A stretch of DNA of 34,394 bases, from NCBI GenBank assembly GCA_016288755.1, contig JAEELE010000018.1:1-34394 (forward strand), in the 5' to 3' direction. Source of the DNA: Oscillospiraceae bacterium. GTDB lineage: Bacteria > Bacillota > Clostridia > Oscillospirales > Ruminococcaceae. Within the stretch, counting starts at the first letter, position 1; every line of letters begins with the position of its first letter. The notes beneath the pieces were generated by a model, which was not told the origin of the DNA, searched no databases, and saw only the letters and a program-made list of their open reading frames with translations. This document shows positions 1,145-23,791 of the stretch, piece by piece. The position numbers and the translations under genes are program-made.

Positions 1145-1178
1145 GGAAAGCTCCCACATTTTTTTGCGGGAGCTTTCA
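1145..1178 (-). promoter_or_regulatory. Strong hairpin between two element genes, just upstream of a ribosome site
   Basis: GAAAGCTCCC and GGGAGCTTTC form a perfect 10-bp stem, extendable to about 13 bp including one G-T pair, around an A6 loop on the minus strand. It lies 9 nt past the stop of the helicase stump and ends about 10 nt before the AAGGAGG of the Toprim gene. No T-run follows on the minus strand, so it is not a standard intrinsic terminator. It may be an RNA-processing or translation-modulating hairpin; this is inference. Confidence 0.45.
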
Positions 1179-1187
1179 TCTATCGTA

Positions 1188-1980
1188 TTATCTTCTGCGC
1201 GGCGCTGACTGTGCAGGCGGATCGAAGTCCGGTGCAATGTCATCATCGTCACGCTGTTCAAATGCTTCACGCTCTCTGCGTTCGCCTTCGGTTTCCTCCA
1301 CTTCATCGGGATCAATAATATCCTCCTGCTGTTCCGACAAACCGGAGAGCTTCTGTTCCAGTTCCGCGAACCGTTTTTGTGTATCGACCAGCTCTGCTTC
1401 CATCGGGAAGGGTTCTCCGACTCTCGCCTTTGCCTGTTCCAGATCGGTCTCATGCTTTGCAATCTCCTGCTCGGTTCTGGTGATCTCTTTTGCAATTCCG
1501 CTGTCAAGGAAATTCGCAATGCGCTGCCAGTTGTCAGCATGATCGCCGCTGCCGACCGGGATGTAGTACACGGAATCCCGCACACCTTTGACCGTCAGCA
1601 CCGCTTCATCGAGATGCCCCGGTCTGGTTTGCACGGCAAGTGTGAAGTCACCGATCTTGAACGACGGCATTTCGTCAAAGGGTCTCTCCAGACGTTTGGT
1701 GATCTGCGTATGCAGGAAAGCGTTGATGTCCTCATGCTTGCGGATCGGTGAACCCATCGGTTTCACCAGCGCAAACTCCTTGACCTTTCCGCTTTGCGGA
1801 TCACGCAGCTTGTCCGCAGATTGCTTGTCAGCCGCCATCTGTGAAAGCATTTCTTTTTTCCGCTCGATCGTTTTCGGAAGCTCCGAAATGCTGTGCTGCA
1901 TCTTTCCAAGCTCATGCTGATGTTCTTGTCGGGATCTGCGTAGGTAAAATAGGTATAGGTATCGTCCTTTGTGCTGGGAT
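1188..1980 (-). pseudogene. C-terminal stump of a giant ICE helicase/N6-methylase, with a frameshift
   Basis: The continuous frame (1188-1901 from its first Met) gives a 237-residue tail typical of the very large SNF2-like helicase plus N-6 DNA methylase proteins of gut integrative elements. It has a coiled-coil entry, then IRKHEDINAFL, IGDFTLAVQT, YYIPVGSGDHADNWQRI, then EQAKARVGEPFPMEAELVDTQKRF and an acidic end. Family members run to about 2000-3000 residues, so nearly everything is missing. Upstream the same frame turns unnatural, but the neighbouring frame reads TYFTYADPDKNISM. Joining it to ELGKMQHSISELP across about 1920-1925 needs a single base, so a 1-nt deletion is likely. The protein-like signal fades by about 1980, where plus-strand coding begins; the upper boundary is approximate. 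Likely non-functional. Confidence 0.6.
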
Positions 1981-1984
1981 AGGA

Positions 1985-2161
1985 GAGGGGCTTGACTGCA
2001 CCGTGCATATCAGGAGAGACGGCAGCAAAATTGTCATGAAGACGGAAAATGCAGGCGTCGCGATCACAAGCACCACAACGGTACCGGACGGTACAGAGCA
2101 GCTCTATCTCGCACTGACCGGTGACCAGTGTGCGATCACCAAAATCCGGATCAGGCACTGA
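1985..2161 (+). pseudogene. 3' stump of an unidentified plus-strand gene
   Basis: The plus frame ending at the TGA at 2159-2161 reads like the end of a folded domain of alternating beta strands (CTVHIRRDGSKIVMKTENAG, then STTTVPDGTEQLYLALTGDQ and a basic end). No start codon or ribosome site exists on the left, where the sequence changes to minus-strand mobile-element coding. A hairpin at 2190-2229 sits where its terminator should be. The simplest reading is that the helicase fragment replaced the 5' part of this gene. The family is not recognised. Confidence 0.4.
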
Positions 2162-2189
2162 TTCTGACGATCACAGCCGATTGAAACCG

Positions 2190-2229
2190 AACGCTCTCAG
2201 AAATGCTTTCATGCATTTCCGGGAGCGTT
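2190..2229 (+). terminator. Hairpin terminator after the 3' gene stump
   Basis: A 17-bp stem, AACGCTCTCAGAAATGC with GCATTTCCGGGAGCGTT, has one G-T pair and one mismatch around a 6-nt loop. It sits 29 nt beyond the stop of the stump. The tail (TTCGTTCC) is only moderately T-rich. Confidence 0.55.
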
Positions 2230-2281
2230 TCGTTCCGGCTTTGCCGATTGTTCGTGTCCCCCCTGACAATCCGCGGGAATA

Positions 2282-2602
2282 TTGCATAATCAAGAAAGGG
2301 ATGTCTGTGCCGAAAAGCCGGATGCCTGTTTTCAGAAACTGTCAACGGAGCTGCATCCCATGAAACGCTTTTTCGCCGCAGCGATTCCGCACATGTCGGT
2401 CTTCGCGCTCGATCAGGACAGCCATTGCAGCTACGAATTTGATCAGGAGCAGCAGGCTGTGACCGACGAGATGTGCAGCCGGATCGGCTGCAGTTTCACC
2501 GTGACCCCGGCGGCGCGGTACGGAAACAGACTCCGAAATGCGCGCGCAGTCACCGGAATTCTGCTCCGGTTATGTTCACAGAAAGTTCTCAAAATTTTCT
2601 GA
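2282..2602 (+). CDS. Doubtful short reading frame, possible gene relic
   Basis: An open frame from a TTG at 2282, or from an ATG at 2361, to 2602. The stretch MKRFFAAAIPHMSVFALDQD onward has protein-like composition and codon use similar to the neighbours, but no ribosome site precedes either start and no family is recognised. The last residues run straight into the promoter region of the structured RNA unit. It could be debris from the same rearrangement that created the stumps to its left. Confidence 0.2.
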   Translation: MHNQERDVCAEKPDACFQKLSTELHPMKRFFAAAIPHMSVFALDQDSHCSYEFDQEQQAVTDEMCSRIGCSFTVTPAARYGNRLRNARAVTGILLRLCSQKVLKIF

Positions 2603-2621
2603 AAAAGTTGGTAAAAACCCC

Positions 2622-2650
2622 TTGACAAATCGCGGATCATGTGATATAAT
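2622..2650 (+). promoter_or_regulatory. Perfect sigma-A promoter of the structured RNA unit
   Basis: TTGACA (2622-2627), a 17-bp spacer and TATAAT (2645-2650): both boxes match consensus exactly. Transcription should start near 2657, exactly where the first long RNA helix begins. No normal-length gene follows before the terminator at 3258-3288. Confidence 0.9.
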
Positions 2651-2656
2651 AAGATC

Positions 2657-3288
2657 ATAAGAACAAAGCATACATGCAAACGACAAAGCAGCAGGGGTTC
2701 TTCCCCCGATGTTCTTATCAGGATCACGCAGCGGTTCCCCGTTCGGGATGTCTCCCCGAATGTCCGACCTTCAGGGTTCCGGTGCAAATCTCCGATCCGG
2801 AAAGGCGCTGATACCAATGGATATGGACGAGTTCTTCTCAGCCATTGACGTTGGCTTCTGCAGAGCGCGCACGGTGTGACATTTCCAGCCCTTTGCTTCC
2901 GGCTTGCGGTCACGGATACCGCATGAGATGCCGGTCATGCAGGCTGATTTCCGATATGGAAGCTGACACCGTGCCCCACCCGTCGACGGACAGGTGCAGC
3001 TGCAGAGCCGCAATCCTACCTCGTTCGACAGGGGTGACGCGGATCACTTCTGCGGCGGAGCGGTTCCGCCGGGCGTAATCGCCAAATCAGTGCAGCAGTC
3101 AATGGTTTGAAGAAACATCAAACACCGCATACCCGCCGACCGAATCGGCGCTGTATGCTGGGAGTGTTGACTCCCGCACAATGCCGCACGGCATTTACAT
3201 AGATTGCCGCTGCACCTCGCACGGGATTTGCAGCAAAAAAATTGAATAACAATAAGGGGGGACTTCGGCATGGAAGTCCCCTTTATTT
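2657..3288 (+). ncRNA. Candidate large structured non-coding RNA, about 630 nt
   Basis: The segment lies between a perfect promoter and an intrinsic terminator, has no normal-length gene, and is packed with nested helices. The 5' end ATAAGAACA (2657-2665) pairs with TGTTCTTAT (2710-2718), enclosing GGGG/CCCC (2694-2697/2703-2706). CAGCG/CGCTG (2729-2733/2806-2810) encloses TTCGGG/CCCGAA (2742-2747/2755-2760) and TTCCGG/CCGGAA (2777-2782/2797-2802). GCACGGTGT/ACACCGTGC (2869-2877/2966-2974) encloses TGCGGT/ACCGCA (2905-2910/2918-2923). CAAATC/GATTTG (3083-3088/3225-3230) with GTGCAGC/GCTGCAC (3090-3096/3209-3215) encloses hairpins at 3127-3158, 3160-3175 and 3181-3194. It lacks the hallmark motifs of RNase P RNA, tmRNA and SRP RNA. 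Length and design recall the ornate large RNAs (ROOL, GOLLD, OLE), but I cannot assign a class. A 20-codon frame at 2824-2886 or nearby is the only peptide-like alternative. Confidence 0.65.
3258..3288 (+). terminator. Intrinsic terminator of the structured RNA unit
   Basis: GGGGACTTC (3258-3266) and GAAGTCCCC (3273-3281) form a perfect 9-bp stem with a 6-nt loop, followed by TTTATTT. It lies between the structured RNA and the ribosome site of the metallophosphoesterase, so it could also attenuate read-through into that gene. Confidence 0.8.
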
Positions 3289-3304
3289 GTCGGAGGTGTG
3301 TACT

Positions 3305-3994
3305 GTGATTTTTGTGACCGGTGATCTGCACGGCGAAAACGACGCCTGGAAGCTGAGCGGGAAGAATCCCGATGCACAGAAGCTCAAAGGTCTGTCGAAG
3401 CAGGATTATCTGATCATCTGCGGCGATTTCGGCATGATCTGGGACGGCAGCGCAAGCGACCGCTGGTGGCTCGACTGGCTCGAAAAAAAGCCCTATACCA
3501 CGCTGTTTATCGACGGCAATCACGAGAACTTCGATCTGCTCGCACAGTATCCGGTCAAAGAGTGGAACGGCGGACTGGTGCAGGAGATCCGACCGGGCAT
3601 TCTGCACCTGATGCGCGGGCAGATGTTCACGATCGGCGGGCTGCGCTTCTTTGCGATGGGCGGCGCCGAAAGTCATGACAGGGAATTCCGGCGCGAGGGC
3701 GTCTCGTGGTGGAGTCAGGAGCTGCCCTCGCCCGGAGAGATCGACGCGGCGCGGAAAACGCTCGACGCATGCGGCTGGGAGACCGATTTCGTGATCACGC
3801 ACTCGCTGCCGGGCTCTGTGCAGACGGCGCTGTTCCGCGGGTACGGCGCGAACCGCCTGACCGATTTCTTCAACGAGCTCTCGGCACGCCTGCAATACCG
3901 CCAGTGGTTCAGCGGGCACTACCACATTGATCAGAATATCTGGTTTGCGCGAGGCATGCGCGCGATCTACAACGATATCCTGCAGATCGGGTGA
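3305..3994 (+). CDS. Calcineurin-like metallophosphoesterase
   Basis: A 229-residue cytoplasmic protein starting at GTG 3305, chosen because CGGAGG lies 8 nt upstream and the product then begins directly with the first beta strand (VIFVTGDLHG). Metallophosphoesterase motifs are in order: GDLHG, then YLIICGDFGMIWD (GDxxx), then FIDGNHENFD (GNHE), then FVITHSLPGS, then FSGHYHID (GHxH). Together these form the dinuclear metal site. Substrate cannot be read from sequence; relatives act on phosphomono- or diesters, including nucleotides. No signal peptide is present. The gene has no obvious promoter of its own and follows the terminator of the structured RNA, so its expression may depend on read-through. 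A mobile-element relic follows its stop. Confidence 0.9.
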   Translation: MIFVTGDLHGENDAWKLSGKNPDAQKLKGLSKQDYLIICGDFGMIWDGSASDRWWLDWLEKKPYTTLFIDGNHENFDLLAQYPVKEWNGGLVQEIRPGILHLMRGQMFTIGGLRFFAMGGAESHDREFRREGVSWWSQELPSPGEIDAARKTLDACGWETDFVITHSLPGSVQTALFRGYGANRLTDFFNELSARLQYRQWFSGHYHIDQNIWFARGMRAIYNDILQIG

Positions 3995-4034
3995 TGGCGT
4001 TTACCGCGTGAACGTGTTCCGCTTTGTTATTCTT

Positions 4035-4129
4035 GGGAATCACTGATTCAATCCGATTCGCAAGATGGCAAAGAAGATGCAAGCTGATTGCGTTCCAAGC
4101 CGTCAGACGGGATTTCATCAGTGATTCCC
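4035..4129. mobile_element. 95-bp MITE-like element with 20-bp inverted ends
   Basis: The left end GGGAATCACTGATTCAATCC and the reverse complement of the right end GGGAATCACTGATGAAATCC match at 18 of 20 positions; the outer 13 bp are identical. The 55-bp interior has no coding capacity. It sits in the gap between the convergent phosphoesterase and anti-sigma genes. Flanking bases share only short T-rich matches, so a target duplication cannot be claimed. The parent transposon family is unknown. Confidence 0.55.
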
Positions 4130-4145
4130 TTGTTGAACATGTCAA

Positions 4146-4907
4146 TCAGAAAAACGCGAGGTACGGGTCACGCGGCTTGTCTGTCGGTTCCGGTCTGTAA
4201 TCCCAGGTACAAAAATAAATGCAAATTCCATTCTCTTTCATTGCAAACAGTACTTCACCCGTCTCTTTGACGGTATAGACACTGTCATCCGGTGAAACCA
4301 ACGGGAGCGCCGCCTCACGGGTTTTGACGGTCTCAAAATCACTGATCTTTCCAAGATAACAGTCAAGCGTGAAATCAGACGCAAACGCCTCAAACGGACA
4401 CTGCGCGTCACCATGATACTCTTTGCCGTTCCAATTCAGTTGAATATAGTCCCAACATTCAGGTAAAAAACAACCAGTGTCAGCATCGGAGATACCGGAT
4501 TCCGCTGAATCTGTGTGATCCGACGCCTCTGTCTGAACCGTTGTAACAGTTGTCTGCACGGGTGCACCGGTGTTGTCCGGTGTGCCCGGTTTTGTTGTCT
4601 GCGCAGGGGTATCCGCTGTGCTTTCGCCGGTCACCGTCGTGACGATCGCCTGCGCTTCGGTCGTATCCGCCTGACTTTGCACCGCGGAAGAGACAGGATC
4701 CCCGCGCAGCGCATCCGTCGGCTGCTTTGCGTGCTGCACGGCAGCCGCTCCGACCGCGATGACCGCGGCAGCGGCGACCGTTCCGAGCGTGAAAACTCTG
4801 CTGCGGTGCATGACCGGCTTTGCGTCCGGCTGCATCGCCTCGCGCACAAGTCCGTCGTCGATGCGGTGCACCGCCTCCAACAGCCTGAGCTCGTTCTTCT
4901 CATTCAT
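4146..4907 (-). CDS. Putative membrane anti-sigma factor paired with the ECF sigma gene
   Basis: A 253-residue protein starting at ATG 4907 (MNEKNELRLLEAV), chosen because AAGGAGG lies 9 nt upstream, inside the end of the sigma gene; the two frames overlap by 8 nt. An N-terminal cytoplasmic helix (~1-35) is followed by one membrane segment (VFTLGTVAAAAVIAVGAAAV, ~38-58). A long Thr/Ser/Pro-rich extracytoplasmic linker (~65-140) leads to a small C-terminal domain with WDYIQLNWNGKEYHG and ICIYFCTWDYRPEP. There is no clear zinc-binding ZAS motif, so the anti-sigma role is inferred from gene pairing and topology. The C-terminal domain may sense an envelope signal. Its stop lies close to the MITE-like element. 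Confidence 0.65.
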   Translation of the reverse strand: MNEKNELRLLEAVHRIDDGLVREAMQPDAKPVMHRSRVFTLGTVAAAAVIAVGAAAVQHAKQPTDALRGDPVSSAVQSQADTTEAQAIVTTVTGESTADTPAQTTKPGTPDNTGAPVQTTVTTVQTEASDHTDSAESGISDADTGCFLPECWDYIQLNWNGKEYHGDAQCPFEAFASDFTLDCYLGKISDFETVKTREAALPLVSPDDSVYTVKETGEVLFAMKENGICIYFCTWDYRPEPTDKPRDPYLAFF

Positions 4908-5454
4908 AATCAAAGCCCTCCTTCTGCAAAAATGCCTTCAGCTTTTTCCGTGTCCGGAACAGATAGGTCGCGCAGGTGCGCTCCTTGAGCCCGCATGCGG
5001 CTGCGATCTCCGCGACCGATTCGCCGTACCAGTACCGCCGGATGAACACCCTTCGGTGCAGAGCGTCCTGTGCGCGCAGAAATCGGCTGATCGCCTCGCC
5101 GAGTGCTTCGGTGTCCGCAGTGTCCGTCTGCGGCGCGGCAATGCATTCGGAGAGCTCGTCGAGCGAGACAGTCAGCGCCGGGCTGCGCTTTTCGGCGTTG
5201 TTGTATTTCAGCCGGTCGATCGCGATATTCTTGACAATGCGGAGCAGATAGGTCTGCAGGCACGGCGGGTCGTCGGGCGGAATCTGATTCCACACCGCAA
5301 AATACGCCGAATTGACGCATTCCTCGACATCCTCGCGCGAACGCAGAAAATTGCCCGCGATCCGCTCGCATAATCTGCCGTAGACGGACTGGAGCGCTGC
5401 GACCGCGCGCTCGTCCCTGTTCCGGAGCAGCTCTGTGATCTGCGCATCATCCAT
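4900..5454 (-). CDS. ECF-family RNA polymerase sigma factor
   Basis: A 184-residue sigma factor with only regions 2 and 4, as usual for the ECF group. Region 2 (~25-90) includes REDVEECVNSAYFAVWNQIP (core binding) and TYLLRIVKNIAIDRLKYNN (-10 recognition). Region 4 (~125-178) includes HRRVFIRRYWYGESVAEIAA and the recognition helix segment LKERTCATYLFRTRKKLK. AAAGGAGG precedes the ATG by 6 nt. The overlapping downstream membrane protein is its probable anti-sigma factor. Such pairs usually autoregulate and respond to envelope stress; the target promoters cannot be told from this window. No convincing sigma-A promoter is seen in the short upstream region, which fits self-transcription. Confidence 0.9.
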   Translation of the reverse strand: MDDAQITELLRNRDERAVAALQSVYGRLCERIAGNFLRSREDVEECVNSAYFAVWNQIPPDDPPCLQTYLLRIVKNIAIDRLKYNNAEKRSPALTVSLDELSECIAAPQTDTADTEALGEAISRFLRAQDALHRRVFIRRYWYGESVAEIAAACGLKERTCATYLFRTRKKLKAFLQKEGFDYE

Positions 5455-5534
5455 ATGGACAGCCTCCTTTCGTGAGGCATGAGGTCCTCTGCCTATATAT
5501 TCGATTTCTCAGGGCAAAATATTTCACTTTGCAG

Positions 5535-5568
5535 AAAAAACAGCACCGTACATTTCTGCACGGTGCTG
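5535..5568 (-). terminator. Intrinsic terminator of the Ig-repeat LRR gene
   Basis: CAGCACCGT (5541-5549) and ACGGTGCTG (5560-5568) form a 9-bp stem with a 10-nt loop. On the minus strand it is followed by a T6 run (5535-5540). It lies about 20 nt beyond the stop of the 1115-residue LRR protein. Confidence 0.85.
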
Positions 5569-5588
5569 CGGAGTCTTATGAGCGAAGA

Positions 5589-8500
5589 TCATTTCACGGT
5601 GAGCGTTGCCTCGCCGGAGGTGGTGGGAACGCCGTTGGCATCGGTGATGATGCAGCGGTACTTCCAGCCGTTGTAGTTCGTTCTGCCGTAGATCGTCAGC
5701 TCTGCGGTCGTCGCGCCGGTCGAGCCGGAATCCTTCCAGCCGGAGCCGGAGTTGTACTGCCACTGATAGGTCAGACCCACACCGGTCGCCGCGACCGTGA
5801 ACTTCGCGTTCGTGTTTGCCGTGACGGTCGTATTGGCGGGCTGCGTCGTGATCTTGGTCTTGATCTTCAGCGTTGCCTCAGAGGAGGGCGTCTCGGGCGT
5901 GGTGTCGTCCTTGACAAGGCAGCGGTACTTCCAGTTGTTGTAGGTCGCCTTCGCGGTGATGCTGAGGGTCGCGGTCTTTGCGCCGGTGCCGTTGGAGTTG
6001 ACCCAGCCGTCGCCCTTGTTATACTGCCACTGATAGGTGACGTTCGTACCGGTTGCCTGCACCGTGAATTTCGCGGTCGCGCCGATGACAGCGCTGGTGT
6101 CGGCGGGCTGACCGGTGATCAGGGTCTTGACGGTGAGCGTCGCTGCGGAGGAGATGGTCTTGGTACCGTTTGCGTCGGTGATGACGCAGCGGTACTGATA
6201 GCCGTTGTAGCCTGCGCTGCTGTTGATGCTGAGGGTCTTGGTCGTCGCGCCGCTGGCGTTGGACTTCTTCCAGCCCTCGCCCTTGTTGTACTGCCACTGA
6301 TAGGTCAGACCTGCGCCTGTGGCGGTCACGGTGAACTTTGCGGCGGTGCCTGCATTGGCGGTGAGGCTCTCAGGCTGCTTGGTGATGACGGTCTTGACCT
6401 TGAGCGTGACCGGAGTCGTGACGGTCTCCTGCCCGCTGCGGTTGGTGATGATGCACTGATACTGCCAGCCGTTGTAGCCTGCGCTGATGTTGATGCTCAG
6501 GGTGTCGGTCTGGGCGCCGGTGCCGTTGGAATTGACCCAGCCGGCGCCCTTGTTGTACTGCCACTGATAGGTGAGGTTCTCGCCCTTTGCGGTGACGGTG
6601 AATTTCGCGGTCTTGCCGACCTGACCGGTGACGGACGCGGGCTGCACAATGATCTCGGGTGCTTCCTCGATCGGTGCGAAGCGGTAGCCGGTGCCGCCGT
6701 CTGCCTGTGCGTTTTCACAGAAGGTCTGTGCGGTGGAGCCGTAATAGCCGTGGATATAGCCCATGTAAACATAGCCGGAGGCATAACGGGAAGAGATCGT
6801 ACCCATGCCGCCTGCGAACGTCACATCCGGGTTGAGAATATAGAGATCGCGGAGCGCGTAGCAGCACTCGAATGCGTAGTAGCCGATGCGTGTGACAGAA
6901 GCCGGAAGCGTCACTGCCGTAAAGTTTTCGCAGTAAGCGAATGCATAAACTCCGATGCTCGTAACGGTGTCGGACAGCACGATGTGTTCAATTTCCTCAT
7001 TGTATGCATACCACGGAACGACCGTCCAGTCTTCAAAGTCATACATATCGCCCTCGCCGACGATGTACAGGGTCTTGTTGTTTTTGTTGTAGATCCAGTT
7101 GAGCGAATCGCCGCAGGTGTTGCCGTAGTACGGGGCAAACTCATAGCCGTAGCTGTCTGCATGATCCTCGGCGGTCGAATTGGGATAGCCGTGCAGCGTG
7201 CGTGTGATGCTGCCGAAGGTGTTCACGAAGACCGTGCTGGTATCGGCGAATTCGCAGTCCGGGTTCATCACATAGCAGTCTGTCAGCTTGGTTTCACTGA
7301 ATGCGTAAGCGCCGACGCTTGTCACGGTCTCGGGCAGCGTGATCTCGCTGAAGCCCTTGCAGTACCGGAATGCGCCTTCCGGAATTGCCGTCAGACCGGC
7401 GGGGATATTCGCAACATTCAGATCAAAATTGAAGGCGAACGCATATATGCCGAGCGTCGTCAGCTTCTGCGGCAGGACGACAGACGTCAGTGCATTGTTG
7501 GCAAACGCATAGTCACCGATGCGGGTGAGCGTGTTCGGAATCTGAGCGTAATACAGATTGAGGTTGTAGAACGCATAGTCGCCGATCTCGGTAATGGCAG
7601 GGTCGATCAACACCTTGTCAAACGTGCACTGGCTCTTGAGCGCCTTCCACGGCGCGGGATCGGAGTAGGTATAATCATACATCGCACCGGAGCCGGTGAT
7701 CGAGAGGGTTCTTGTCGCCTGATCGTAGCTCCAGCTGGCGTTGTTGCCGCAGCTGCCGGAGGTCGGCGTCTCGGCGATCTCCTCGAAGGTGCGGCCTGCG
7801 GTGCTCGCGTAGGTCTGCGCGGTCGAGTTCTTGTAGCCGACGATCTTGCCGGTGTAGTCATAGATGCCGTTGTATACGCGGTTATAGATAAACCGGTCTT
7901 CCTGGCCTTCGGTCACGAAGATCGTGCAGTCCTTGTTCAGCACAGTGAGCGATTCCATGCGGAGACAGTCGCTGAACGCCTGCGATCCGATTCTGCTCAC
8001 GCTCGCAGGAACAGTGACTGCAGTCAGCTTGTCGCAGTTAAAGAATGCATTTGACTCGATTGTCTGCAGACCCTCCTTGAGCGTGACCGCGGACAGCGAT
8101 TCGCAGTTTCTGAAGCAATACGAGCCGATTTTCTGCACGCCCTCAGGAATCGTGATCGAGGACAGTGATGTGCACTGATTGAAGGCATACTCACCGATTG
8201 TCAGCGAACTCCCATTGAGCGTGACCGAGGACAGCGATGCGCAGCTGTTGAAGCAGTTCGCGCCGATTACCAGCAGACCCGCATTGAGCGTGACTCTGGA
8301 CAGCGATGCGCAGTTGCTGAAGCAATACGAGCCGAGACCGCACAGATATTTGTTGGCTGTGAAAGCGGTCAGTCCGCTTTTATAGAACGCATAGTTCCCG
8401 ATCGACTCCAGAGCTTCAGGGAGCGAGATGCTTTTGAGTGCCGAGCAGGTGTAGAAGCAGTAATTGCCGATCGTTTTCAGATTGGCAGGAAAATTGATCG

Positions 8501-10960: not shown

Positions 10961-11088
10961 TGCACAATTTCCGCCGCGCCTGCATATACTGGAAGCAGCC
11001 GCGGGCAGACGCATATCCGCGATTCTTTCATACAGACTGATCAGGCGGTGACAATCGTCACAAAGCCGGGCTTTCGGGCAGCAGAGCG
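10961..11088 (+). promoter_or_regulatory. Possible structured leader upstream of the cation-efflux gene
   Basis: Between the dockerin gene stop and the terminator there are several short helices: CGCGG...CCGCG near 10994, GTGAC/GTCAC with an AATC loop near 11047, and GCAG/CTGC near 11080. The motif GGGCAG occurs twice. No clear promoter separates the terminator at 11089 from the CDF gene 54 nt later. The arrangement resembles an attenuator, but it may just be the 3' UTR of the preceding gene. Confidence 0.25.
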
Positions 11089-11131
11089 ATCTGCGGGACA
11101 GCATCAAAAACGCCGTCCCGCAGATTTTTTA
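11089..11131 (+). terminator. Strong intrinsic terminator before the CDF gene
   Basis: ATCTGCGGGAC (11089-11099) and GTCCCGCAGAT (11115-11125) form an 11-bp stem with a 15-nt loop followed by a T-run. It ends either the dockerin-LRR transcript 130 nt downstream of its stop or a leader of the following efflux gene. Confidence 0.85.
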
Positions 11132-23477: not shown

Positions 23478-23550
23478 GGGAGCATAGCTCAGCTGGGAGA
23501 GCATCTGCCTTACAAGCAGAGGGTCACAGGTTCGAGCCCTGTTGTTCCCA
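23478..23550 (+). tRNA. tRNA-Val (TAC)
   Basis: Acceptor arms GGGAGCA/TGTTCCC (one G-T pair), D-arm with AGCTCAGCTGGGAGAGC, anticodon stem CTGC/GCAG with loop containing TAC at 23511-23513, and T-arm ACAGGTTCGAGCCCTGT. 3' CCA is not encoded. Confidence 0.97.
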
Positions 23551-23554
23551 TCAT

Positions 23555-23629
23555 GGCCTGGTAGTTCAGTTGGTTTAGAACGCCGCCCTGTCACGGCGGA
23601 GGTCGTGGGTTCGAGCCCCATCCAGGTCG
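23555..23629 (+). tRNA. tRNA-Asp (GTC)
   Basis: Acceptor arms GGCCTGG/CCAGGTC, anticodon stem CCGCC/GGCGG with loop CTGTCAC (GTC at 23590-23592), and T-arm GTGGGTTCGAGCCCCAT. CCA is not encoded. Confidence 0.97.
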
Positions 23630-23636
23630 TACATCT

Positions 23637-23709
23637 GCGGATTTAGCTCATCTGGTAGAGCGCCACCTTGCCAAGGTGGAGGTAGCGGGTTCGAGCCCCG
23701 TAATCCGCT
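23637..23709 (+). tRNA. tRNA-Gly (GCC)
   Basis: Acceptor arms GCGGATT/AATCCGC, anticodon stem CCACC/GGTGG with loop TTGCCAA (GCC at 23670-23672), and T-arm GCGGGTTCGAGCCCCGT. CCA is not encoded. Confidence 0.97.
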
Positions 23710-23714
23710 CTCAT

Positions 23715-23785
23715 GGCGTGGTAGCCAAGTGGTAAGGCAATGGTCTGCAACACCGTGATCACCGGTTCAAATCCGGTCCGCGCCT
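23715..23785 (+). tRNA. tRNA-Cys (GCA)
   Basis: Acceptor arms GGCGTGG/CCGCGCC, short D-arm, anticodon stem ATGGT/ACCGT with loop CTGCAAC (GCA at 23747-23749), and T-arm ACCGGTTCAAATCCGGT. CCA is not encoded. Confidence 0.97.
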
Positions 23786-23791
23786 CTTCGG

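Follow-up and report, generated by a model that had tools for sequence, protein, structure and literature searches.

A conserved structured RNA with a short open reading frame in one genus of the Oscillospirales, and apparent relatives carrying arrays of start-stop frames

Bacterial 6S RNA mimics a promoter and holds RNA polymerase, CsrB, CsrC and RsmZ are CsrA sponges built as arrays of short GGA-bearing units, and the dual-function RNAIII of Staphylococcus aureus is a long structured RNA with one Shine-Dalgarno (SD)-led short ORF. Lambda bar is a two-codon minigene. Further two-codon minigenes, consisting of an SD, an AUG, one sense codon and a stop, are mg2 of axe-txe and that in the LEE1 leader of EHEC; one such minigene was shown to undergo translation and to increase expression in cis, perhaps via mRNA protection, and peptidyl-tRNA recycling can be exhausted by very short ORFs (PMC8708949). 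Highly expressed genes favour alanine (GCN) as second codon, and it was suggested that such codons keep dipeptidyl-tRNA bound to the ribosome (PMC1397820). ROOL and GOLLD RNAs are described as carried by phages or prophages, frequently close to tRNA islands (PMC12286853).

Here we analyse an RNA encoded in a stretch of 34,394 nucleotides (the window) from an Oscillospiraceae bacterium. It resembles ROOL, GOLLD and OLE in length class and in its extensive covarying structure (PMC12286853), but has no Rfam match and carries a conserved short ORF (sORF); most copies have yrzB/6S neighbours, in contrast to the phage or prophage setting given there for ROOL and GOLLD. Like 6S RNA (RF00013), which is encoded nearby in many relatives, it is structured, and its logic would be analogous if it acts as a decoy; however, the two are unrelated in sequence, the RNA described here is much longer, and its proposed target is the ribosome. 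With RNAIII and other dual-function RNAs it has in common that a long structured RNA bears one SD-led short ORF, but homology to them is not shown and the peptide is not conserved across genera. Its apparent relatives carry array units made, like the two-codon minigenes of PMC8708949, of an SD, an AUG, one sense codon and a stop, with GCA and GCT as the commonest second codons; yet those minigenes act singly and in cis within mRNA leaders, whereas several units are found here in one free-standing RNA, and the ORF of the window, with its 20 codons, is itself unlike a two-codon minigene. Arrays of short GGA-bearing units also recall CsrB, CsrC and RsmZ, but many of the units seen here are start-stop ORFs, and CsrA is missing from about half of the genomes inspected (see below).

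Transcription unit, consensus fold and known RNA classes

The original prediction of a perfect promoter, of more than 600 nt without a normal gene and of an intrinsic terminator was borne out in all three respects (Table 1). In a promoter scan of 4 kb, four sites with at least 9/12 consensus matches were found versus 1.9 in shuffles, and the promoter of the RNA matched at all 12 positions. The first ~53 bases of our BLAST query matched other promoters within the order. tRNA genes lie directly 3' of the similar promoter in two of 16 such loci scanned (L021 and L022); rRNA was seen at none of the similar-promoter loci, though several of them lie near contig ends, where rRNA operons often end up in assemblies. 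From the promoter type we infer that the RNA is highly expressed. Six ORFs of at least 60 aa overlap the ~630 nt of the predicted transcript. Five of them, all but 3195-3377, were covered by a Pfam scan, and the sole match was to a calcineurin-like phosphoesterase (3242-3994, + strand), whose listed start overlaps the terminator; for these five ORFs, a protein gene within the transcript was rejected. The phosphoesterase gene directly past the terminator has a counterpart in just the near-identical stretch among the 15 homologues. Judged from the retrieved stretches, transcripts of the homologues would measure ~620-840 nt.

Table 1. Features of the RNA locus (positions in the window)
Feature	Position	Strand	Basis or remark
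Promoter TTGACA-17-TATAAT (-35 box 2622-2627, 17-nt spacer, -10 box 2645-2650), TG before the -10 box	2622-2650	+	12/12 matches
Predicted transcript, ~633 nt	2657-3289	+	start deduced from the -10 box; homologues
5' domain, closed by helix 2657-2665/2710-2718 at the predicted transcription start	2657-2718	+	exact inverted repeat
SD-like GGAAAGG of the sORF	2799-2805	+	homologue alignment
Alternative start-codon hairpins 2814-2819/2849-2854 and 2815-2819/2843-2847	2814-2854	+	energy folding; homologues
Conserved sORF, 20 codons + TGA (MDMDEFFSAIDVGFCRARTV)	2817-2879	+	homologue comparison
Long-range helix, 5' arm, inside the sORF	2842-2849	+	partner 3098-3105; covariation
Stop-codon helix, 5' arm, covering the sORF end up to the first base of the stop codon	2869-2877	+	partner 2966-2974
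Conserved hairpin TTCCGATATGGAA (helix 6)	2949-2961	+	homologue alignment; no pairs with double changes
Stop-codon helix, 3' arm	2966-2974	+	partner 2869-2877
Long-range helix, 3' arm	3098-3105	+	partner 2842-2849; covariation
Terminator hairpin 3258-3266/3273-3281, then T-rich stretch	3258-3289	+	inverted repeat; covariation helix 9

The folding energy of the window RNA is clearly below that of 20 dinucleotide shuffles (z -5.7). Since the reverse strand is nearly as stable (z -5.4), folding energy alone is no proof of a structured RNA. We therefore rely on covariation, examined for nine consensus helices in an alignment of 15 sequences (A1), in which 94.5% of the helix cells are paired. Changes on both sides were counted in 37 of 61 pairs, versus 17.5 in shuffles (none of 500 as high) and 8-15 when the helix partners were slid; the covariation score was 0.393, compared with 0.200 for shuffled and at most 0.118 for slid partners. 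The consensus structure was derived from A1 itself, so this test favours that structure; furthermore, the sequences in the covariation, sORF and array tests are related, and P values are to be taken as indicative.

Among the helices tested, the one spanning the longest range (the long-range helix of Table 1) changed on both sides in 8 of 10 aligned pairs; it was absent from the list of helices first proposed, and the conserved sORF had likewise gone unnoticed there. The stop-codon helix, which was on that list as an exact inverted repeat, is indeed one and covaries as well (6/8 aligned pairs), and the terminator stem shows double changes in 5 of 12 pairs. The proposed 5' helix is likewise an exact inverted repeat; for 10 of the 15 homologues, the best 5' helix begins 5-6 nt past the -10 box (an uncontrolled count). 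A further proposed helix, 3090-3096/3209-3215, is an exact inverted repeat in the window, but lies outside the tested consensus and, by eye, is kept only in the nearest copies (L005 and L006).

The suggestion that the RNA might belong to a known ornate class did not hold: at gathering score, Rfam models including ROOL, GOLLD and OLE left the RNA unmatched in the window, and so did a search at E up to 10 of window positions 2300-3700 and 14 homologue loci. Altogether, the Rfam searches of window, homologues and array loci yielded only neighbouring genes and matches at chance level. No tRNA matches were obtained in the 14 homologue loci of 2.2-3.3 kb. A check for RNase P RNA and tmRNA, proposed at the outset, located both genes elsewhere in the genome of the window (G000), at contigs C126 (RF00010, 276.9 bits) and C69 (RF00023, 163 bits), so that a displaced copy of either was rejected; identity with 6S RNA was likewise discarded, as RF00013 is unmatched in the window and a separate 6S gene resides on C25 (62.7 bits). 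A large structured RNA outside the known ornate classes is thus supported. The initial view of a large non-coding RNA stands with respect to structure, and is incomplete with respect to "non-coding": a conserved reading frame and compensatory helix changes had been set against each other as alternatives, and we found both (37/61 pairs; sORF open in 24/24 genus copies). The RNA is therefore not simply non-coding.

The RNA and its short ORF within the genus

A BLAST search of 150 relatives returned one copy (L004) identical across the 701-base query, on a contig 99.85% identical to window positions 1145-5782, together with diverged copies from the same genus that are collinear from promoter through terminator. 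A covariance model of the RNA core built on 15 sequences (R1) gave matches at E <= 0.001 in 26 of 30 genus genomes. One of them (L112 in G016, 21 bits) sits in apparent coding DNA and was dropped, so that the RNA is counted in 25 of 30 genomes. The R1 search found no copy in G011, G012, G027, G015 and G016. The first three are at most 82% complete; G015 (99%) and G016 (96%) are near-complete, and there the RNA must have been lost or changed beyond recognition, hence it cannot be strictly essential. Across 396 genomes of the family, R1 exceeded 130 bits in five genus members, and all remaining matches scored 27.6 bits or less. Of the weak matches beyond the genus, L071, L088 and L089 look unrelated on reading, and L068 was judged real, sharing start motif, promoter and yrzB neighbour. 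The RNA family is well supported. In G009 we noted a second, diverged copy (L113, G009:C96:11147-11316, 93.6 bits); two RNA copies can thus be binned into one genome.

In all 15 aligned copies an ATG is present at the same place, followed by a frame open for 20-26 codons. The same holds for the 24 distinct sORFs from 26 genus loci, all of them SD-led and open for 20-26 codons behind GAAAGG; the pattern that picked these 24 demanded GAAAGG and CCNATGGA, so these letters are not independent evidence in that set, whereas the 15 aligned copies were chosen independently of it. Two length variants in A1 result from insertions of 9 nt, and L013 has CGG in place of the TGA, with a TAG directly next to it. 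Two further copies, L109 (G013) and L110 (G006), have frames extending beyond the usual SV-stop to 26 codons. Certain residues recur within the genus (M[DE], P, I/V, GS and SV). Averaged over differing codons, BLOSUM62 is 0.34 in frame versus -0.44 and -0.77 for the two alternative frames; the in-frame value was reached in 88 of 1000 column permutations and is hence not significant, and the synonymous fraction is at its null (488/1000). Peptide identity thus seems to be only weakly kept, and with the frame always open we read this as stronger conservation of the frame than of the peptide. The sORF overlaps the 5' arms of the long-range and the stop-codon helix, by which, on the alignment, part of the ORF conservation is explained; translation must then open both helices.

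The minimum-energy fold of the window RNA selects the first of the two start-codon hairpins in Table 1, hides the start codon and omits the long-range helix. A slightly different CAATG/CATTG hairpin (the second one), with five contiguous pairs hiding the AUG, could form in 14 of 15 homologues. It is mutually exclusive with the long-range helix, of which at least 8 of 10 pairs are kept in all 15 homologues. Both hairpins may be incidental.

A DUF1292 (yrzB) gene is encoded within 1 kb of the RNA in 21 of 25 genus genomes (exceptions: G000, G004, G009 and G018), a count obtained by comparing match positions, with one such protein checked. 6S RNA was detected in 9 of 14 homologue loci, in seven of them above gathering score. 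The window copy adjoins neither of the two: in its genome the yrzB/6S pair is located on C25, without the RNA, and in G009 yrzB/6S is found on C66 and the RNA copies on C90 and C96. Since the RNA persists apart from these neighbours, it most likely acts in trans. Given this neighbourhood, the presumed association with mobile elements is not supported; the nearby integrative-element fragment exists, as a DUF3991/Toprim_2 gene (57-1157), but ~1.5 kb rather than 0.6 kb from the RNA. When viral contigs were scanned for the start motif, three matches turned up, all with ORFs of at least 50 codons, which is weak evidence against phage carriage because the pattern misses the variant of the window itself. 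Apart from this, the near-identical G009 contig, which matches window positions 1145-5782, diverges upstream beside the DUF3991/Toprim_2 gene, and a mobile-element boundary at ~1145 is likely.

Arrays of short reading frames in other genera

The start-motif pattern was found in 43 of 396 family genomes, compared with 10 for the reversed control. The loci judged true share the promoter type, contain GAAAGG...GAGTCCNATGGA and have a first ORF beginning with M[DE]. 6S RNA is near 6 of 10 such loci beyond the genus (three above gathering score), and near two of three Ruminococcus records (L248 and L219, but not L265). A scan of named genomes returned at least 120 stretches with the motif. Among the matches listed together with the viral loci (L191-L313), a promoter-like element lies within 480 nt upstream of 73 of 124 pattern sites, versus 5/124 with the upstream sequence reversed; 72 sites among these matches (L270 was dropped), including one in Ruminococcus albus AR67, combine such an element with an ORF of less than 40 codons. 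The count leaves out pattern matches whose ORFs reach 40 codons (in Agathobaculum, Paenibacillus, viral contigs and others). In R. flavefaciens XPD3002 the motif and 6S RNA are present, and the promoter is visible but was missed by the regular expression. An order-level sample showed the motif in 14 of 394 genomes, six of them outside the family; three of these six (L314-L316), all from one second family, have promoter and short ORF.

Twelve or more further genera have the array form, and its named carriers include R. albus. For counting, 72 + 16 loci among the matches listed were reduced to 75 distinct ones by leaving out L191, L239, L241, L252, L290 (which ends before the stop) and loci that share their first 60 nt with another. 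The first ORF comprises 12-26 codons in 74 of these 75 loci, where 31% would be expected, or 34% when the exclusion of ORFs >40 codons is allowed for. Behind it, 69 of the 75 loci listed carry further SD-CCN-ATG units, 173 in total. Units of at most three codons make up 123 of the 173, in contrast to 18 of 105 in the background, for which both strands of these loci beyond the RNA, and the reverse strand of the RNA itself, were taken (Fisher 4e-19, relatedness ignored); genuine units past 1,800 nt may be included in this background and would make the contrast smaller. In 54 of the 75 loci listed, one or more units of at most three codons are present. Among the two-codon ORFs of the same matches, 40 of 71 have GCA or GCT as second codon. 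A second type of unit, 7-16 codons long, has an LNI-like end in 37 of 130 cases versus 6/300 in the background, this ending having been defined post hoc. The first-ORF peptides differ widely between genera; an acidic residue at positions 4-6 is found in 72 of 78, and the M[DE] start is imposed by the search pattern.

In R. albus a looser repeat finder resolved the array into four modules of ~215 nt, spaced 211-221 nt apart; Tandem Repeats Finder detected no array there. In strain AR67 (L265, 3303-4118) the four modules carry short ORFs and ATG-GCN-stop ORFs, and some of the short ORFs, by eye, seem to start with GTG or TTG. In another record, L238 (CAMWVV010000117.1), the start motif occurs twice, 3.8 kb apart, with identical first-ORF peptides.

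In the genus of the window, only the first ORF of 20-26 codons is seen, longer than the few codons at most that define a minigene. The RNA of the window seems to be one form of a wider family that includes the arrays; the two are linked by the type of promoter, the locus and a ~40-nt motif (R1 scores 5.6-28 bits) rather than by a full alignment. The form of the genus may be either condensed or ancestral relative to the arrays.

Possible engagement of ribosomes and alternative explanations

What the sequence comparisons establish is an RNA family with its helices, the position of its ORF, the related arrays and the locus. Beyond this, we propose, at a probability of roughly 0.4, a new class of trans-acting structured RNA that works by capturing or counting initiating ribosomes, either as a translated decoy or as a sensor of translation capacity. 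Transcription would proceed from a strong promoter of the stable-RNA type, and a translation start built into the RNA would be its central feature: ribosomes would bind GGAAAGG, initiate with the AUG at position 2817 and terminate 20 codons later, and while translating would open the arms of the two conserved helices, so that occupancy would be coupled to the fold. Expression, translation, ribosome capture and regulatory purpose are all steps that we infer. The rows of mini-genes in relatives suggest an RNA built for ribosome engagement rather than protein making: since related genera carry arrays of start-stop mini-ORFs, it would be this engagement, and not the making of a peptide, that is conserved. 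The GCN second codons, suggested to stabilise dipeptidyl-tRNA, fit capture rather than tRNA depletion. With a single start site instead of an array, the genus of the window fits the capture model less well than the array carriers do. A family-wide ribosome decoy, strongly transcribed and in many relatives encoded beside 6S, whose start-stop arrays hold or meter initiating ribosomes and which in the window's genus was reduced to one site within a rigid, covarying fold, is conceivable but doubtful.

It seems unlikely to us that the RNA is purely structural, acting like ROOL, GOLLD or OLE via its fold or a self-assembled particle, with the short ORF as a by-product. Strong covariation across the whole molecule would be in line with this, as would the share of ORF conservation owed to the two helices and the non-significant codon-level signal. 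Such an RNA would nevertheless have little reason to maintain 24 of 24 open frames with the stop at nearly the same place, despite 9-nt indels and the shifted stop of L013, or to show its start motif in other genera ahead of short ORFs of tight length and together with mini-ORF arrays. For a dual-function RNA like RNAIII or SgrS, in which the 20-residue peptide would act and the remainder would be a base-pairing regulator, the peptides of other genera share too little past the pattern-imposed M[DE] and the acidic residue at 4-6, and many of the later ORFs, with 1-3 codons, are too short for a functional peptide; this makes the explanation improbable, even though one conserved SD-led ORF within a terminated, structured RNA and the residues recurring in the genus speak for it.

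The competing pairings around the start codon, held in a local hairpin or set free once CAUUG pairs 250 nt away in the long-range helix, could also constitute a self-contained, translation-responsive switch. The conservation of the long-range pairs in all homologues, the possibility of the AUG-hiding pairing in 14 of 15 and the energy fold of the window, which hides the AUG and omits the long-range helix, are as such a switch would require; on the other hand, the hairpin of the energy fold differs from the one shared by the homologues, the recurrence of CCNATG in other genera means that the shared hairpin may be incidental, the RNA ends in a terminator, and a controlled downstream gene would be hypothetical. 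We regard a switch as quite improbable. Repeated GGA-containing units in the arrays would be expected if the RNA served as a sponge that sequesters CsrA or another protein binding GGA. CsrA (PF02599) is absent, however, from 10 of 19 RNA-bearing genomes, among them the array carriers G245, G064 and G396, and therefore the RNA is not a general CsrA sponge; for the genus of the window this function was rejected, as 3/3 tested genomes are without CsrA. A GGA-binding protein other than CsrA is a possible partner, but start and stop codons would be left unexplained, and a sponge of either kind is highly improbable.

The RNA, conserved in most genomes of its genus and present as arrays in other genera, is without an Rfam family, and in the open-licence literature we found no description of such an RNA. 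If the RNA does engage ribosomes, it would be a natural RNA made of translation start sites, of a kind not found in that literature, and a translation-side counterpart of 6S RNA. The family has cultured hosts and is therefore directly testable. Elsewhere in the window, we noticed a NiCo riboswitch at 11027-11103 (+ strand, 44 bits) and a tRNA cluster Val-Asp-Gly-Cys at 23478-23786 (+ strand).
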